Origin: DHVE2 group archaeon | GTDB taxonomy: Archaea > Thermoplasmatota > Thermoplasmata > Thermoplasmatales > Aciduliprofundaceae | NCBI GenBank assembly: GCA_027023265.1 | Contig: JALVVV010000023.1 | Location: 1 to 47,394, forward strand | Reading direction: 5' to 3' | Length of the DNA: 47,394 bases | Part shown: in pieces, positions 12,411 to 19,515 of the stretch | Layout of the letters: each line of letters opens with the position of its first letter | How positions within the stretch are numbered: position 1 is the stretch's first letter | Position numbers and translations under genes: made by a program | The notes under the pieces: model-generated | The model's database searches: none | What the model was told of the DNA's origin: nothing | Seen by the model: the letters and a program-made list of their open reading frames with translations, nothing else

Positions 12411-12436
12411 TTTACATCACCCCAGTATACATTCCA

Positions 12437-13261
12437 ATTTCCATACTACTAAGTTCTCCTGAAACGGTATAAAAATATCGCAATTACAAATATATAAATC
12501 TTATTTCCATACTACTAAGTTCTCCTGAAACTGGGTTCTTTTACGATGGAAAAAATTACCGATGGTAATTTCCATACTACTAAGTTCTCCTGAAACAGTT
12601 TGAAAGTGAGGAGGAGCTAAAAAAATTCATAGATTTCCATACTACTAAGTTCTCCTGAAACTTCTGGGATTGGCTGTACGACTATGCAGTCAACGCTATT
12701 TCCATACTACTAAGTTCTCCTGAAACGGAGTATGCTCACGGGACAGATAGCAACAATACAGCAAGAATTTCCATACTACTAAGTTCTCCTGAAACCGGGT
12801 TCATATGGGTGGCCATTTTTTACTTTTTCACGGCATTTCCATACTACTAAGTTCTCCTGAAACACTATATATGGGGATGAGGAACAGGATACAGATGAAG
12901 AATTTCCATACTACTAAGTTCTCCTGAAACCGCTTCCACGCTTTCGCCTCTGCGTCGAGAAGCATATTATTTCCATACTACTAAGTTCTCCTGAAACGGG
13001 AAAATCAAGCTAACGGAGAGGGATGCAAACTCCCTGAATTTCCATACTACTAAGTTCTCCTGAAACTTGTATTTATCCCATCTCTTTTTTGCGAGTTTAC
13101 TAATTTCCATACTACTAAGTTCTCCTGAAACTATGATACCATATTCAACTGAATATAATTATCATGATTTCCATACTACTAAGTTCTCCTGAAACCTGAT
13201 GAGATAAACTCCTATATAACAGGTGATAACTAATTTCCATACTACTAAGTTCTCCTGAAAC
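12437..13261 (-). CRISPR. CRISPR array, 13 repeats of 29 nt, 12 spacers
   Basis: Thirteen identical repeats (plus strand begins ATTTCCATAC and ends CTCCTGAAAC) start at 12437, 12503, 12568, 12633, 12698, 12767, 12835, 12902, 12969, 13038, 13103, 13167 and 13233. The twelve spacers are 35-40 nt long, within type I-B range. Read on the minus strand, the repeat starts GTTTC and ends TATGGAAAT, like many type I repeats whose crRNA 5' handle comes from that end. With the AT-rich leader on the right, this implies leftward transcription. No repeat is degenerate, even at the ends, so orientation rests on leader and repeat form. The cas operon lies 4.5 kb to the right. Confidence 0.98.
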
Positions 13262-13500
13262 CCGATTTACAGAATAGGTATATGACTTATCCTTAAAAAA
13301 ATTTTGCACTTGAAATAATGAGTCACCCTCCAATTCTGCAATTCATTTATAAACCCTTACCGACCAAAGCCATTATTTATTAATAAAATCAAATTAAATG
13401 GAACGGTTAACAGGAATAGCACAAGCTAATTAACCATAAAATTTAGGTTTTTAATAAATATGTTCAAAAGAGATATATGCAATTTTTACATATGAGAGGC
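13262..13500 (-). promoter_or_regulatory. CRISPR leader (probable), shared with the promoter of the 13502 gene
   Basis: AT-rich, non-coding sequence of about 240 nt abuts the last repeat, as leaders do. It holds a TATA-like box for leftward transcription at 13346-13353. It also holds, for the divergent gene at 13502, a TATATG element (13474-13479) 26 nt before its ATG. The opposite flank of the array instead holds a small frame, supporting the leader assignment here. Confidence 0.65.
13346..13353 (-). promoter_or_regulatory. TATA box for pre-crRNA transcription
   Basis: TTTATAAA lies about 85 nt outside the first (leader-side) repeat. A start about 25 nt downstream would give a pre-crRNA leader of about 60 nt. 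Confidence 0.45.
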
Positions 13501-13501
13501 C

Positions 13502-14119
13502 ATGAGACAAATACTGTTAAAAAAACTAAGGGAGATCTGCGAGGATATAAATTCCATTGCAGGGGAGTGGCCGGTTGTTGTGGGCTCGTTTGGATACGTA
13601 CTGTTGGGCCATCTTGACTGGAAGCACATTTACGTGACAAAAGACATTGATATTTTCGCCCCGGACATAGATTCCTTTGAAGTTGCTGACAAGCTTATGG
13701 AGAAGGGGTGGAACATCGTGCACTACTCTTTTACTAACGCGGTTTACATAGACAATATACCCGTGGAAATTCTGTCAAATACCATGGCAAATACTTACAT
13801 TCCTGCACCTCTTTACAAACACTGGAAAGAAGTGAGCGATATTAGAGTAATGGAAGCGCCAGGAATATTGATATCGCAGGCAATATACCGCGATGTAACT
13901 AACCTGACAGAATATCTAAAAAGGGCAATACCTGTGGATAAAACAAAAGAATATCTAAAAGAATGCGAAGAAGACATCAAAAACATGTTCGGGTCCGAAA
14001 AATTAAAAGTCATAAAGGAGAGAATTGACAGTTTCGCAATGGCACAGGAGGTGAAATTTAGTGGAGATAGAGCTGGGAAAGATAATTCCAGTCCTGAGCA
14101 ACGTGAAGATATTGATTAA
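13502..14119 (+). CDS. Nucleotidyltransferase-fold protein (possible toxin-like NTase)
   Basis: A 205-aa protein. Residues 24-60 carry the pol-beta-type nucleotidyltransferase pattern: VVVGSFGYVLLGH (GS motif) followed by KDIDIFAPD (DxD metal motif). This resembles proteins of the AbiEii/DUF6036 kind, some of which are toxins or antiphage proteins that add nucleotides to tRNA. The similarity is by motif only. It begins right beside the CRISPR leader, has a leaderless-type TATA, and overlaps the next gene by 59 nt. Substrate and role are unknown. Confidence 0.6.
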   Translation: MRQILLKKLREICEDINSIAGEWPVVVGSFGYVLLGHLDWKHIYVTKDIDIFAPDIDSFEVADKLMEKGWNIVHYSFTNAVYIDNIPVEILSNTMANTYIPAPLYKHWKEVSDIRVMEAPGILISQAIYRDVTNLTEYLKRAIPVDKTKEYLKECEEDIKNMFGSEKLKVIKERIDSFAMAQEVKFSGDRAGKDNSSPEQREDID

Positions 14120-14642
14120 TACTGACAATTCCGAATTTCCCACGGGGGAATATTTAGCCATTTTCAACGTACCAAATGAGCTTACAAATAAATATGGAGA
14201 GAAAATCATCGTGGAGGCGGTTCTTTATGTAACCGCAAAAGAGGCAGGAGATTACAAGCTCTTCTCCTCTTGGATTATTTTCAAGGAGAGAAACAAACTC
14301 AATGGCTCAGAAGAAATTTACTCAGAGGTCTCAAAGTATCCCCATTATATTAAGATTAAAAAGAATCCTGGCGAGTGGGAACTGGAAAAGTGTAAAGGGT
14401 TGCTTTACGCGGAGCAGTTCAGGGAAAAGATAGTGGTTATAGAACCCCCATCTGAGCCAAAGCAGAGAGAGAAGCTGAGGGTTGAATTAGAAGGCGTGAG
14501 GGGAAAAAACAAAAGCCACAGTGGACTTGTAAACAAGATAGGGGCGAGAAAAATAAGGCCCTGGGTTTATTACGTGCAAGGGTTTAAGATACCCCATATT
14601 GAGAGAACAGTCAAGAAATACGGTGGAAAAATAATTTATTAG
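14061..14642 (+). CDS. Unknown protein, probable partner of the nucleotidyltransferase-like gene
   Basis: A 193-aa protein starting at GTG, supported by a strong GGAGGTGA site 6 nt upstream, inside the preceding gene. The N-terminal part looks beta-rich (VKILINTDNSEFPTGEYLAIFNVP ... IIVEAVLYVTAKE). The last third is strongly basic (GVRGKNKSHSGLVNKIGARKIRPW), which could bind nucleic acid. No family is recognised. The 59-nt overlap and shared promoter make it a two-gene unit with the nucleotidyltransferase. A toxin-antitoxin or antiphage pair is possible but is inference from layout. Confidence 0.6.
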   Translation: MEIELGKIIPVLSNVKILINTDNSEFPTGEYLAIFNVPNELTNKYGEKIIVEAVLYVTAKEAGDYKLFSSWIIFKERNKLNGSEEIYSEVSKYPHYIKIKKNPGEWELEKCKGLLYAEQFREKIVVIEPPSEPKQREKLRVELEGVRGKNKSHSGLVNKIGARKIRPWVYYVQGFKIPHIERTVKKYGGKIIY

Positions 14643-14737
14643 ATTTTTTAGAAGAGTATTTTAGATATACCATGTGGTGTGGAAACGTGGAGAAAGTTAA
14701 ATATCCGATTCCCCGATTCAGTCTCGGAGATGGCAGA

Positions 14738-15385: not shown

Positions 15386-16822
15386 TCAATTTCTCCTGCG
15401 TATTTTCAAAACCCACAACACAAGCATCAGGGCAATTACCGGCAACATGAACACCTGTAGCTCTGGCACTTCCCCGCCTGGAGTCGCGCTTACTTCGTTG
15501 CTCTTATCGCTTTCTCCTGCTGAGCTAACCGCGGTTACATAGTACATGTAAGTTTGCCCCCCAACCACGTCGGTATCATTGTAATAGAGCTGGGACACGG
15601 AGACTGAGGCAAGTAAAACACCGTTGCGATATACACGATAGTAAGTTATCGGTGAAGTGCCGTTTCCACGGGGAGCTTTCCATGTTAAATACACATAGCC
15701 ATTTCCCACGGTAAAATTTAAGTCTCTTGGCGCCAGAGGGGGTAATTTGACCGTTGTGTTTTTCAGGGGATAGTAATCCTCCGCACCTGCAGAACCAGAT
15801 GTCCTGTACGGCCACTTCACAACGTCCCCGTGATAATTCGTATCGTTGTTGTTTGCCCAGTCACGCCAGTAATTGCCGATTCCACCGGTTGTATTCCATG
15901 AATTGTTTGAACCGTCATCATCCGCTTGAATGTACGCGCTATTGAACTTGTCACCAGTGCCGTTGTTGTAAAAGAAAGCGTTTTTGTAGATGAGATTTTT
16001 TGAACCAGATACTATATGTACCCCATAGCCGGTGTTGTTTACGAATACATTGCTGTAAACTTCATTCATGCTTGAAGAATATATGTATAAGCCCACATTG
16101 TTATAACTGCACGTATTGTTATGCAGGGTACTGTTACCCGAAAAATCCAGGAATATTCCATTGTAACCGTTGTGCAGGCATGTGTTGCTGGATAAAACAT
16201 CATCACTTGAGGACTCCAGTATTATCCCGTTGAGACTGTTGTTATTGCACGTGTTGTTTGTTACGGTATTGTTGTTAGAGCTTGAATAAAACTCCATTCC
16301 CGCCATGTTTTTGTAACAAGAGTTATTAGATATGGTGCTGTTGCTTGATTCATCAAATAATATTCCAATTAAATTCTCACTGCATGTATTGTTCTCGATA
16401 ACACCATTTGTCACATTATAAAGTTCTATACCCAATCCACCGAAATAGGGATTTGACACGGGAGAAGTGTTGTGCATGTAAGAATTTTTTATGATGAAAT
16501 ATACCGTGGTATTTCCAATGTATATTGCGTCTCCCGCCCCGTGCGCATCTATATCGTACCCGGAAATTATGTACGGATTTCCCTGCGTGCCGTCTCCCGG
16601 CCAGCCATTTACGGAAGCTTGTTTTGCAAAATCGGTATCATTGTTTATTCTTATAACATCGTGTGCATTGTATCTCACGCCGTCAATATCCACAACCTGT
16701 CCAAAAGTACCCGCATTTCTTTCATACAAATTCTCGTGTGCATTTATCCCGTGTATTCCCACACTCATAGAGCTGAACAGCATAAACACCAATATACCTA
16801 CTGCAAGCCACCTCCATTTCAT
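15386..16822 (-). CDS. Exported beta-helix and fibronectin-III surface protein with C-terminal anchor
   Basis: A 478-aa protein. Residues 1-25 form a signal peptide (MKWRWLAVGILVFMLFSSMS). About residues 60-330 hold Asn-rich right-handed beta-helix repeats of the NosD/PbH1 kind (VIENNTCSENLIG, TISNNSCYKNMAG, TLHNNTCSYNNVG). About 360-450 is a fibronectin type III domain (PRDLNFTVGNGYVYLTW). A hydrophobic helix and basic end follow (MLPVIALMLVLWVLKIRRRN). It is probably anchored outside the cell; many NxS/T sites suggest N-glycosylation. The ligand is unknown. It is single-gene, with TTAATATT 26 nt before the ATG. Confidence 0.75.
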   Translation of the reverse strand: MKWRWLAVGILVFMLFSSMSVGIHGINAHENLYERNAGTFGQVVDIDGVRYNAHDVIRINNDTDFAKQASVNGWPGDGTQGNPYIISGYDIDAHGAGDAIYIGNTTVYFIIKNSYMHNTSPVSNPYFGGLGIELYNVTNGVIENNTCSENLIGILFDESSNSTISNNSCYKNMAGMEFYSSSNNNTVTNNTCNNNSLNGIILESSSDDVLSSNTCLHNGYNGIFLDFSGNSTLHNNTCSYNNVGLYIYSSSMNEVYSNVFVNNTGYGVHIVSGSKNLIYKNAFFYNNGTGDKFNSAYIQADDDGSNNSWNTTGGIGNYWRDWANNNDTNYHGDVVKWPYRTSGSAGAEDYYPLKNTTVKLPPLAPRDLNFTVGNGYVYLTWKAPRGNGTSPITYYRVYRNGVLLASVSVSQLYYNDTDVVGGQTYMYYVTAVSSAGESDKSNEVSATPGGEVPELQVFMLPVIALMLVLWVLKIRRRN

Positions 16823-16953
16823 GAATATTGTATATATTTGGAGAATATTAATTTTTCCACCATTGGAAAGAGAAAGTGTTCAATACCCTACAGCCACATC
16901 ATGGTAAAACAGAGAGTATAAAATATATAACAGCAACCCCTATGGGTGAAAAT

Positions 16954-17691
16954 ATGAATGAGATAATACTTAAAGTGGCAGAGGCGCCACCTATGGATAT
17001 TGGGCTTGGCAGGGCACGTTTGGACTCAAAAAGCCGTGAAAAACTGAACATGGAAATAGGAGATGTAATTGAGATCACTGGAAAGAGAACCACCGCAGCA
17101 CGTGTGTTTAAAGCAAAGCAGGAAGATGAAGATAGGGGCATAATCAGAATAGATGCGTATATCAGAAAAAATGCAAAGGTCGCAGTAGGTGATGAAGTAA
17201 AGGTAAAGAAGGCAAATCCAGAAGAGGCAATGAAAATTGTTTTGGCTCCCCTTATAGGAAAGAATCAGAGGTTGATGTTTAGCGAGGACATTGGTGAATT
17301 TGTAAAGAAAAGTATGTTGAAGAGGCCTCTTATAGAAGGTAATGAAATAGTCGTTCCGAACCTTACCATTAGTGGCAGAGAGAGCATGCTTTTCAAAGTT
17401 GTTAAGACTGTGCCGGCAAAAAAAGTACTTCAAATAGGGGCAAATACCGAGATTGAGGTCAGAGAAGAGCCACCAAACGAACTAATCAAAGAAGATGTTG
17501 GCAAGGAAGGAAAAATCAACAGCGTGGATGTAGTGCTGTACGATGCACACTATCAAAAAATAATAGCCAAAGACGGAAGCATGGATTTGCTCACCTTCAT
17601 GAACAATGTCAGAGACAAGGCGGACACGGTGGTTTTTGATTTCAAAAGAGGTGTGTGCATCGTGTTTTGGAAAACTTCTAATATAAAATAG
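16954..17691 (+). CDS. Stand-alone Cdc48/VAT N-domain protein without AAA modules
   Basis: A 245-aa protein. Residues 1-90 match the double-psi beta-barrel of Cdc48/VAT (VAEAPPMDIGLGRARLDSKS, GDVIEITGKRTTAARV, EDRGIIRIDAYIRKNA), and about 95-175 match the Cdc48 domain-2 barrel. No P-loop or AAA domain follows. Instead there are about 60 residues (SVDVVLYDAHYQKIIAKDGS ... VVFDFKRGVCIVFW) that I do not recognise. In Cdc48 this N-domain binds adaptors and substrates, so a free copy may act as an adaptor or competitor; this is inference. ATG at 16954 has GGGTGA upstream. Confidence 0.78.
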   Translation: MNEIILKVAEAPPMDIGLGRARLDSKSREKLNMEIGDVIEITGKRTTAARVFKAKQEDEDRGIIRIDAYIRKNAKVAVGDEVKVKKANPEEAMKIVLAPLIGKNQRLMFSEDIGEFVKKSMLKRPLIEGNEIVVPNLTISGRESMLFKVVKTVPAKKVLQIGANTEIEVREEPPNELIKEDVGKEGKINSVDVVLYDAHYQKIIAKDGSMDLLTFMNNVRDKADTVVFDFKRGVCIVFWKTSNIK

Positions 17692-17694
17692 GCA

Positions 17695-17709
17695 TTTTTT
17701 CACATTTTT
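17695..17709 (+). terminator. Oligo-T terminator after the Cdc48-N gene
   Basis: T6 and T5 tracts occur within 20 nt after the stop codon. They separate this gene from the convergent cas operon. Confidence 0.45.
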
Positions 17710-17774
17710 CAGCATATATTGGAGAAGAACTTGAAGGAGTCAAAGCAAAAGCACATACACGTCGCGCATATATT

Positions 17775-18038
17775 CTATATTATCATCTCAGTCCTGTTCT
17801 TCTCCACCCCTATCGTTATTCTTTTTATTGCTTTTTCACTCGAGCAACGATATATTATTATAGAATCTTCTTCCTCTTCAATTATCTCCTTTAAATCATC
17901 AACCATTATAGAATACTGACTGTTGGTAAGCTCGCCTTCAAAAACGGAATTTTGAATCCAGTGCAAATATCTTTTCAGGAACTTGTTTACTTTGTTTACC
18001 CTGCTTTCGTCTATGTCGTAAACAAGTACGACGTACAT
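17775..18038 (-). CDS. cas2: CRISPR adaptation endonuclease Cas2
   Basis: An 87-aa ferredoxin-like protein that with Cas1 forms the spacer-integration complex. MYVVLVYDIDESRVNKVNKF holds the conserved Asp at the end of strand 1. YLHWIQNSVFEGELT is the typical RNase-like core. ATG at 18038 overlaps the cas1 stop (TGATG), so translation is coupled. It is the last gene of the cas operon. Confidence 0.93.
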   Translation of the reverse strand: MYVVLVYDIDESRVNKVNKFLKRYLHWIQNSVFEGELTNSQYSIMVDDLKEIIEEEEDSIIIYRCSSEKAIKRITIGVEKNRTEMII

Positions 18039-19012
18039 CACCACCACATCCTGAAACTTCTATATTTTTTATCACCCAGCACATGCTTCACTAATTTGTA
18101 TGCTTCCAATCTCAGCAATCTCCGATAGCTCACCTTCCGATGAAGCTGTTTGTGCATTATTGTGGTCTTCATTTTCTCATCATAGACCTGCAAAAATTTG
18201 CGCTTTGCAGAATCTTTAAGATAGTAGCCCAGATCTTTATTAAAATCACTCTTTTTAATTATGCCGTTGTTTATCACGGTGAATATGACCCGCTCCACTA
18301 TTACTGGCTTGAATATGTCCGCAAGATCGAGTGCGAGTGAGAACCTACGCTCAGATGGCTCGTGAAGATAACTAATAGAAGGGTGCAAGTATGTGTTGTA
18401 TATCTCCGTGAGTGTGGCCGTGTAAAGCAGGGAATTGCCATAAGAAATTAAAGCGTTTAACTCATCTCCTGGTGGGTGATACTCTCTTTTTTCCATTTTA
18501 AACCCGCGAATAAAAGAGTTAAAACTTTTGTAATAATGAGACCAAATCTGTGCTTCCCTGTTCATAATATCCATCACCGATTGACCTTCAACTTCTACAT
18601 CTTCTATTTTTGATATGTATTCATCTACATCTTTCCCTCTTTTTCTGTAATATTTGAGATTTTTGAGCACGTTGTCCTTTATTCCACCAACAATTTCTTT
18701 TGCAATGTACATTCTCTTCTCATTATCAAGGTAATGCTCAACTTGCTTAACTATCACCAGTCCCGAGTTGAGCTGCTCACGAGGATAAAGAGAGCCTGCG
18801 TAATAACCATACTTGTTGAAAAAATGAACAGGTATGCCAAGTTTCATGAGGTAATAGGCGGCCCCAGATCTCACGGTGATTCGCGCCATGCAATTTATTT
18901 CGCTTATGTCTTCCACGGGCATCGCCCTTTTCATCTCCTTGTTCACGAAGTATATCGTATTCCCTTCCTTCTTTACAATTCCCTCTTGCGTTAAATATAA
19001 CGGCTTTTTCAT
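18038..19012 (-). CDS. cas1: CRISPR integrase Cas1 (type I-B)
   Basis: A 324-aa metal-dependent integrase that inserts new spacers at the leader end. The start MKKPLYLTQEGIVKKEGNTIYF is typical of the I-B subgroup. Catalytic residues are recognisable in NREAQIWSHYY (Glu), YLHEPSERRFSLALDLADIFKP (His, Asp/Glu) and the downstream basic helix. The frame extends 35 codons further, into cas4, with low-complexity Arg/Lys sequence. ATG at 19012, preceded by GGTGTGA and only 4 nt past the cas4 stop, is the better start. Confidence 0.94.
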   Translation of the reverse strand: MKKPLYLTQEGIVKKEGNTIYFVNKEMKRAMPVEDISEINCMARITVRSGAAYYLMKLGIPVHFFNKYGYYAGSLYPREQLNSGLVIVKQVEHYLDNEKRMYIAKEIVGGIKDNVLKNLKYYRKRGKDVDEYISKIEDVEVEGQSVMDIMNREAQIWSHYYKSFNSFIRGFKMEKREYHPPGDELNALISYGNSLLYTATLTEIYNTYLHPSISYLHEPSERRFSLALDLADIFKPVIVERVIFTVINNGIIKKSDFNKDLGYYLKDSAKRKFLQVYDEKMKTTIMHKQLHRKVSYRRLLRLEAYKLVKHVLGDKKYRSFRMWW

Positions 19013-19511: not shown

Positions 19512-19515
19512 AAGG

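Follow-up and report, generated by a model that had tools for sequence, protein, structure and literature searches.

An AAA-less VAT/Cdc48 N-region protein with an orphan C-terminal tail, encoded beside cas2 in a DHVE2 group archaeon

Introduction

Ufd1, a cofactor of eukaryotic Cdc48, carries its UT3 domain at the N-terminus, and its C-terminal part is recruited to Cdc48. AMP phosphorylase, an enzyme of nucleotide metabolism, has in archaea an N-terminal domain that is weakly CDC48_N-like and stands without a Cdc48 AAA ring. To our knowledge, no N-domain cofactor of VAT, the archaeal Cdc48, has been established. Removal of the N-domain makes VAT a more active ATPase and unfoldase, and what the domain does physiologically is described as unclear (PMC5423775). 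In eukaryotes, the N-domain of Cdc48 is the docking site of most cofactors, and the UT3 domain of Ufd1 has the same architecture as Cdc48-N without an AAA ring (PMC4192671). AAA-less Cdc48-N folds (Ufd1 and, weakly, AMP phosphorylase) are thus already known, and so is domain conversion between archaeal paralogs: gene conversion homogenizes the domain shared by the mtrA-1 and mtrA-2 genes of methanogens, which differ in an added domain (PMC4632066). A literature search, with most subscription journals outside its scope, turned up no archaeal protein described as consisting of the VAT N-region only.

Here we describe such a gene, referred to below as the N-only gene, in a window of 47,394 nucleotides (the whole stretch of DNA that was analysed; contig JALVVV010000023.1) from a DHVE2 group archaeon. 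Its product is like VAT of Thermoplasma acidophilum in having both barrels at full length and the same predicted fold, but it has neither AAA D1 and D2 nor the VAT linker, and carries a 66-residue orphan tail instead. In layout the product resembles Ufd1, where a Cdc48-N-type fold also lacks an AAA ring and is succeeded by a C-terminal part of another kind (PMC4192671), whereas the sequence is that of VAT-N itself, and a Pfam scan to E 1, in which CDC48_N and CDC48_2 matched, gave no match to the Ufd1 family in the 245 residues. Ufd1 is eukaryotic and the N-only gene is archaeal and known from two genomes only, and the likeness lies in predicted layout. The mtrA paralogs encode an unrelated protein, and their conversion was long-lasting across whole lineages, whereas the N-only gene presents two events in two genomes. 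The AMP phosphorylase domain reaches only 23–27 bits against CDC48_N, which is below the cut-off.

Domain Composition and Predicted Fold

The open reading frame runs from an ATG to a TAG codon and encodes 245 amino acids (Table 1). Both Pfam matches are above the curated cut-offs, CDC48_N with 97 bits over profile positions 2–84 of 85 and CDC48_2 with 38 bits over positions 2–62 of 64, and the NCBIfam model of Cdc48, TIGR01243, is matched over positions 2–172 of 733 only. The closest solved structure in a sequence search is 1cz4, the VAT-N of T. acidophilum (residues 2–180, E 1.3e-52). In an AlphaFold model of the full protein, built with 31 aligned N-regions, the block means of pLDDT over residues 1–170 are mostly 91–97, with 73–79 around residues 101–110 and 131–150, and Foldseek returns 1cz4 as the best match of the N-region model (E 2.3e-17). 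The initial annotation, made from the letters of the sequence, had recognised both barrels of the Cdc48 N-region in this frame, and the profile matches and the predicted fold bear it out. Neither Pfam nor NCBIfam finds an AAA domain in the protein, and tandem AAA modules with Walker A and B motifs are absent. A frameshift that would join the frame to an AAA domain is excluded, since the convergent cas2 begins 83 bp past the stop codon and no AAA sequence lies downstream. It is close to certain that the N-only gene encodes a complete VAT/Cdc48 N-region, with the VAT-N fold predicted and without an AAA domain. The gene also appears to have its own promoter-like signals, which were predicted by eye (Table 1).

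Table 1. Features of the N-only gene and its surroundings (positions in the window).
Feature	Position	Strand	Evidence
TATA-box-like element TATAAAATATATAA	16917–16930	+	upstream of start codon; by eye from sequence; also in sister genome
GGTGA, Shine-Dalgarno-like, 4 nt before ATG	16945–16949	+	by eye; also in sister genome
CDS, AAA-less VAT/Cdc48 N-region with orphan tail	16954–17691	+	profile, structure-search and model evidence
CDC48_N barrel (barrel 1), residues 6–88	16969–17217	+	Pfam E 6.8e-28; codon analysis; neutral simulation; tree
Older conversion tract, 39-nt block	17236–17274	+	identical in both N-only genes and the VAT of the window's genome; 38/39 in the sister VAT
CDC48_2 barrel (barrel 2), residues 109–174	17278–17475	+	Pfam E 1.2e-9
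Recent gene-conversion tract from own VAT	17299–17472	+	7 differences in 174 bp; permutations; barrel 2 tree
Orphan C-terminal tail, residues 180–245	17491–17688	+	low-confidence model: strand(s)-helix-strand-strand
T-rich stretch, terminator-like, after stop codon	17695–17710	+	by eye from sequence
cas2, convergent neighbour, last gene of type I-B cas operon	17775–18047	-	PADLOC Cas2b, 1.1e-33

The VAT-like sequence stops at ...EVREEPP and a new segment begins at about residue 177–180, in keeping with the earlier remark that the chain ends about 60 residues past the barrels in sequence unlike AAA modules. The tail has no relatives in Pfam, NCBIfam, PHROGs or the PDB, and searches of viral contigs and phages, at the sensitivity applied, yielded no match to it. 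Both of its models are of low confidence (pLDDT 69 and pTM 0.53 for the tail alone, block means of about 36–59 in the full model), and both predict strand(s), a helix, a strand and a strand. A Foldseek search of the PDB with the tail gives at best the KH1 domain of FMR1 at a non-significant E of 0.18, and a PDB profile search gives E of 0.1 and above at best (galectin-3). A strand-helix-Walker-B likeness noticed by eye had suggested a degenerate remnant of AAA D1, a candidate that was rejected because the tail scores no better than shuffles. The same was found with an HMM made from 31 VAT/Cdc48 sequences, and Smith-Waterman comparison with these sequences gives a p of 0.23 against shuffled tails (0.15 with the VAT of the same genome), which, by score, rules out the possibility, raised at the outset, that the tail is a known Cdc48 linker. 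We also rejected the possibility that the tail lies antisense to a gene following cas2 on the minus strand (ORF 17482–17715): in the sister genome a stop interrupts this frame, which moreover shows more amino-acid changes, 10 against 7. Three tblastn matches of the tail in distant genomes (E 0.03–0.04) were judged to be chance; one crosses a stop, and of the two that were inspected one sits in a membrane protein and the other in a secreted one.

Relation to the Full-Length VAT

The genome of the window contains two full CDC48-family genes, so that the N-only gene is an extra one. The first is the full VAT (G000:C18), for whose presence elsewhere in the genome the initial annotation had proposed a check; it is a 754-codon open frame, 77% identical in protein to the N-only product over residues 1–186. 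The second is a paralog with a 731-codon frame (C24).

Codons were compared among the N-only gene of the window, the N-only gene of a sister genome described below, and the VAT genes of both. In barrel 1, the N-only genes differ from each other by dN 0.04 and dS 0.26 and from VAT by dN 0.20–0.22 and dS 1.25–1.77, the latter being near saturation, and a tree places them together (100/99), apart from their own VATs. Judged by these distances, the N-only gene is an old VAT paralog, with synonymous sites of barrel 1 near saturation. In barrel 2, the sister copy is far from VAT (dS about 1), whereas the window copy is nearly identical to the VAT of its own genome. The base differences between these two over the recent tract (Table 1) all fall in 6 nonsynonymous codons, with 0 synonymous ones, a pattern that is equally compatible with adaptation and with a relaxation of constraint; the VATs of the two genomes have 11 synonymous codon differences across all of barrel 2. 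The window copy and its VAT agree over as many as 34 consecutive polymorphic sites, a run length that none of 10,000 permutations attained (p < 1e-4), and the tree of barrel 2 places the window copy with the VATs (93/97). It is close to certain that barrel 2 of the window copy was recently converted by its own genome's VAT, in the lineage of the window. The exchange is described as patchy because some sites of the tract (about alignment codons 140–145) retain the N-only state. The 39-nt block of Table 1 marks an older exchange with VAT, common to both genomes; other VATs of the family agree with it at only 25–30 of the 39 positions.

Selection was assessed by simulations of neutral change between the window and the sister species. 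Purifying selection acts on barrel 1: of the 17 substitutions that separate the two species, 4 change an amino acid, against an expectation of 11.8 (p 5e-5, dN/dS about 0.15); cas2, taken for comparison, has a similar depletion of amino-acid changes (p 6.5e-4). The tail has 6 amino-acid changes where 8.6 are expected, and no stop; the resulting p of 0.06 is suggestive only of purifying selection and not significant by itself. As regards a possible pseudogene, an intact window copy with a constrained barrel 1 stands beside this tail value and a sister copy whose start is broken.

Distribution and Genomic Neighbourhood

Searches of 60 relatives and of 300 genomes of the class found the tail in one other genome, the sister DHVE2-group MAG G002 of the same genus (WAOD01000021.1), and the single record with the tail in a contig collection of 84,980 species is again this MAG. 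The two tails are 90–92% identical, with no stop or indel. Six further genomes of the genus, including two with a completeness of at least 93%, lack the N-only gene. A CDC48_N scan covered 201 genomes of the class, and among the matches listed (down to E about 8e-26) the short CDC48_N frames other than the window and sister genes sit at contig ends. Five of them (G012:C116, G105:C200, G111:C68, G111:C20 and G197:C53) were therefore taken to be cut genes and rejected as further N-only genes, and G003:C249 corresponds to the truncated beginning of the VAT encoded by that genome. Weak extra CDC48_N matches were set aside as AMP phosphorylase-like, being, as we presume by eye from their sequence, AMP phosphorylases.

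At the start of the sister copy, there is an exact 16-bp tandem duplication, and translation from the ATG would meet a stop after 11 codons; initiation at a GTG would still be possible, at the cost of the first strand. The AMP phosphorylase-like gene of the same MAG (1226–2742) is split into frames of 108 and 383 amino acids, which is either a real break or the result of assembly errors. Because the MAG has this other broken frame, the start defect of the sister N-only gene may be an assembly error too.

The neighbouring type I-B operon, cas6-cas8b-cas7-cas5-cas3-cas4-cas1-cas2, runs from 26031 down to 17775. The other flank of the N-only gene is occupied by a gene for a NosD-like beta-helix protein (15386–16822, minus strand), and a CRISPR array with 13 repeats spans about 12436–13263. 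Gene order in G002 is identical (NUDIX, NosD, N-only gene, cas2, cas1, cas4) at 88–94% nucleotide identity, and the similarity breaks off just inside cas4, in its first codons (window position 19514); past cas4 the sister carries a different cas3-like gene, and its repeats, at the opposite end of the block, are of a different type. The N-only gene adjoins cas2 in both of its two occurrences and is part of a conserved block with the adaptation genes, and equally with NosD and NUDIX. It was placed inside the defence island by the initial annotation; it does adjoin the end of the type I-B cas operon, in convergent orientation, but it is not in an operon with cas genes. The link to CRISPR or defence is one of proximity only.

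Several further observations concern the surroundings of the gene. The genes cas4-cas1-cas2 are about 94% identical in the two genomes while the genes past cas4 and the CRISPR repeats differ; it looks, from sequence comparison, as if the interference module and the array had been exchanged around a retained adaptation module. At window positions 14669–14689 a 21-bp remnant of the sister's CRISPR repeat (ACCATGTGGTGTGGAAACGTG) overlaps the apparent ATG of the NUDIX gene, with no array left, so the true NUDIX start probably lies downstream of the listed one (14672). Between the array and the NUDIX gene (13502–14642) there are two ORFs of 205 and 193 amino acids with no Pfam match. The NosD/beta-helix protein, which also has fn3, belongs to a multi-copy family with 30 matches in its own genome and up to 72 in a relative, and many copies per genome are present throughout this archaeal family.

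Possible Functions

It is possible that the N-only protein is an accessory or decoy of VAT, a reading to which we give a little less than an even chance. An AAA-less paralog of the VAT N-region would have gained a small orphan C-terminal segment, and its barrels would have stayed VAT-like partly through selection on barrel 1 and partly through repeated conversion from the full VAT, which, having occurred two times, would keep barrel 2 usable as VAT-N. The protein may bind the ligands of the VAT N-domain, either substrates or N-domain modulators, without ATP, and the tail may bring them to VAT or to another partner, or withhold them from VAT. The complete barrels with their predicted VAT-N fold, the constraint on barrel 1, the intact frame, the TATA-like, Shine-Dalgarno-like and T-rich elements and the sister ortholog with the same tail and neighbours speak for this accessory role; the fact that only two close genomes are known to have the gene, the broken start of the sister copy, the exclusively nonsynonymous differences of the recent tract, the non-significant selection on the tail, the lack of tail relatives and the weak tail model count against it. 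The suggestion of the initial annotation that a free copy might act on VAT or alongside it is compatible with the data and with the precedent of Ufd1 UT3. The more specific proposal of a lineage-specific cofactor acting on VAT in trans, which would combine the VAT N-domain with a new small domain and be kept in register by gene conversion, is in our estimate rather unlikely.

The main rival to the accessory role is a decaying duplicate, that is, a former copy of the VAT N-domain which is losing function, whose open tail is unimportant and whose exchange with VAT comes merely from sequence similarity. We regard this as a serious possibility, although clearly short of even. It would account for the presence of the gene in two genomes only, for the 16-bp duplication in the sister, for a recent tract in which every codon difference from VAT is nonsynonymous, and for a tail without relatives whose purifying signal misses significance. 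Against it stand the strong purifying selection that barrel 1 has experienced after the two species diverged, an intact window copy that has expression signals, and the age of barrel 1, the frame of which is still open despite its synonymous distance to VAT; the sister's start, moreover, may be a matter of assembly, given the broken AMP phosphorylase frame in that MAG. An independent chaperone or binding protein, a free N-region that holds unfolded proteins without ATP and has no tie to VAT, seems unlikely to us: the barrels are complete and predicted to be well folded without the AAA ring, and VAT-N alone can reportedly assist refolding (Golbik et al.), but neither the conversion from VAT nor the new tail is needed for such a function. 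Far less probable is a CRISPR accessory acting with the adaptation genes cas4-cas1-cas2; the gene is indeed kept beside cas2 in both genomes despite differing interference genes and repeats around them, but it lies on the opposite strand with its own promoter-like signals, PADLOC assigns the N-only protein to no known family of Cas or defence proteins, no such gene accompanies the further cas1-cas2 loci that were inspected in G000, G002 and G003, and NosD and NUDIX show an equally tight linkage. That the gene is a truncated or chimeric VAT produced by assembly or annotation, as the near-identity of part of it to VAT might suggest, is strongly disfavoured and hardly credible, since a second MAG has the same gene, tail and neighbours, no AAA sequence follows, the converted tract differs from VAT at 7 bases, and the VAT-like and sister sequences have only about 12 bp in common at the tail junction, which is too short for an assembler jump.

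Concluding Remarks

A free N-module existing beside a full VAT would be a ready-made probe of the ligands of the N-domain. Should the accessory role of the N-only protein be true, it would provide an archaeal and independent example of the way in which an N-domain-like cofactor such as Ufd1 could arise from Cdc48 itself. Even if the gene is only a decaying copy, it clearly illustrates gene conversion at the level of domains in an archaeon that has not been cultured.
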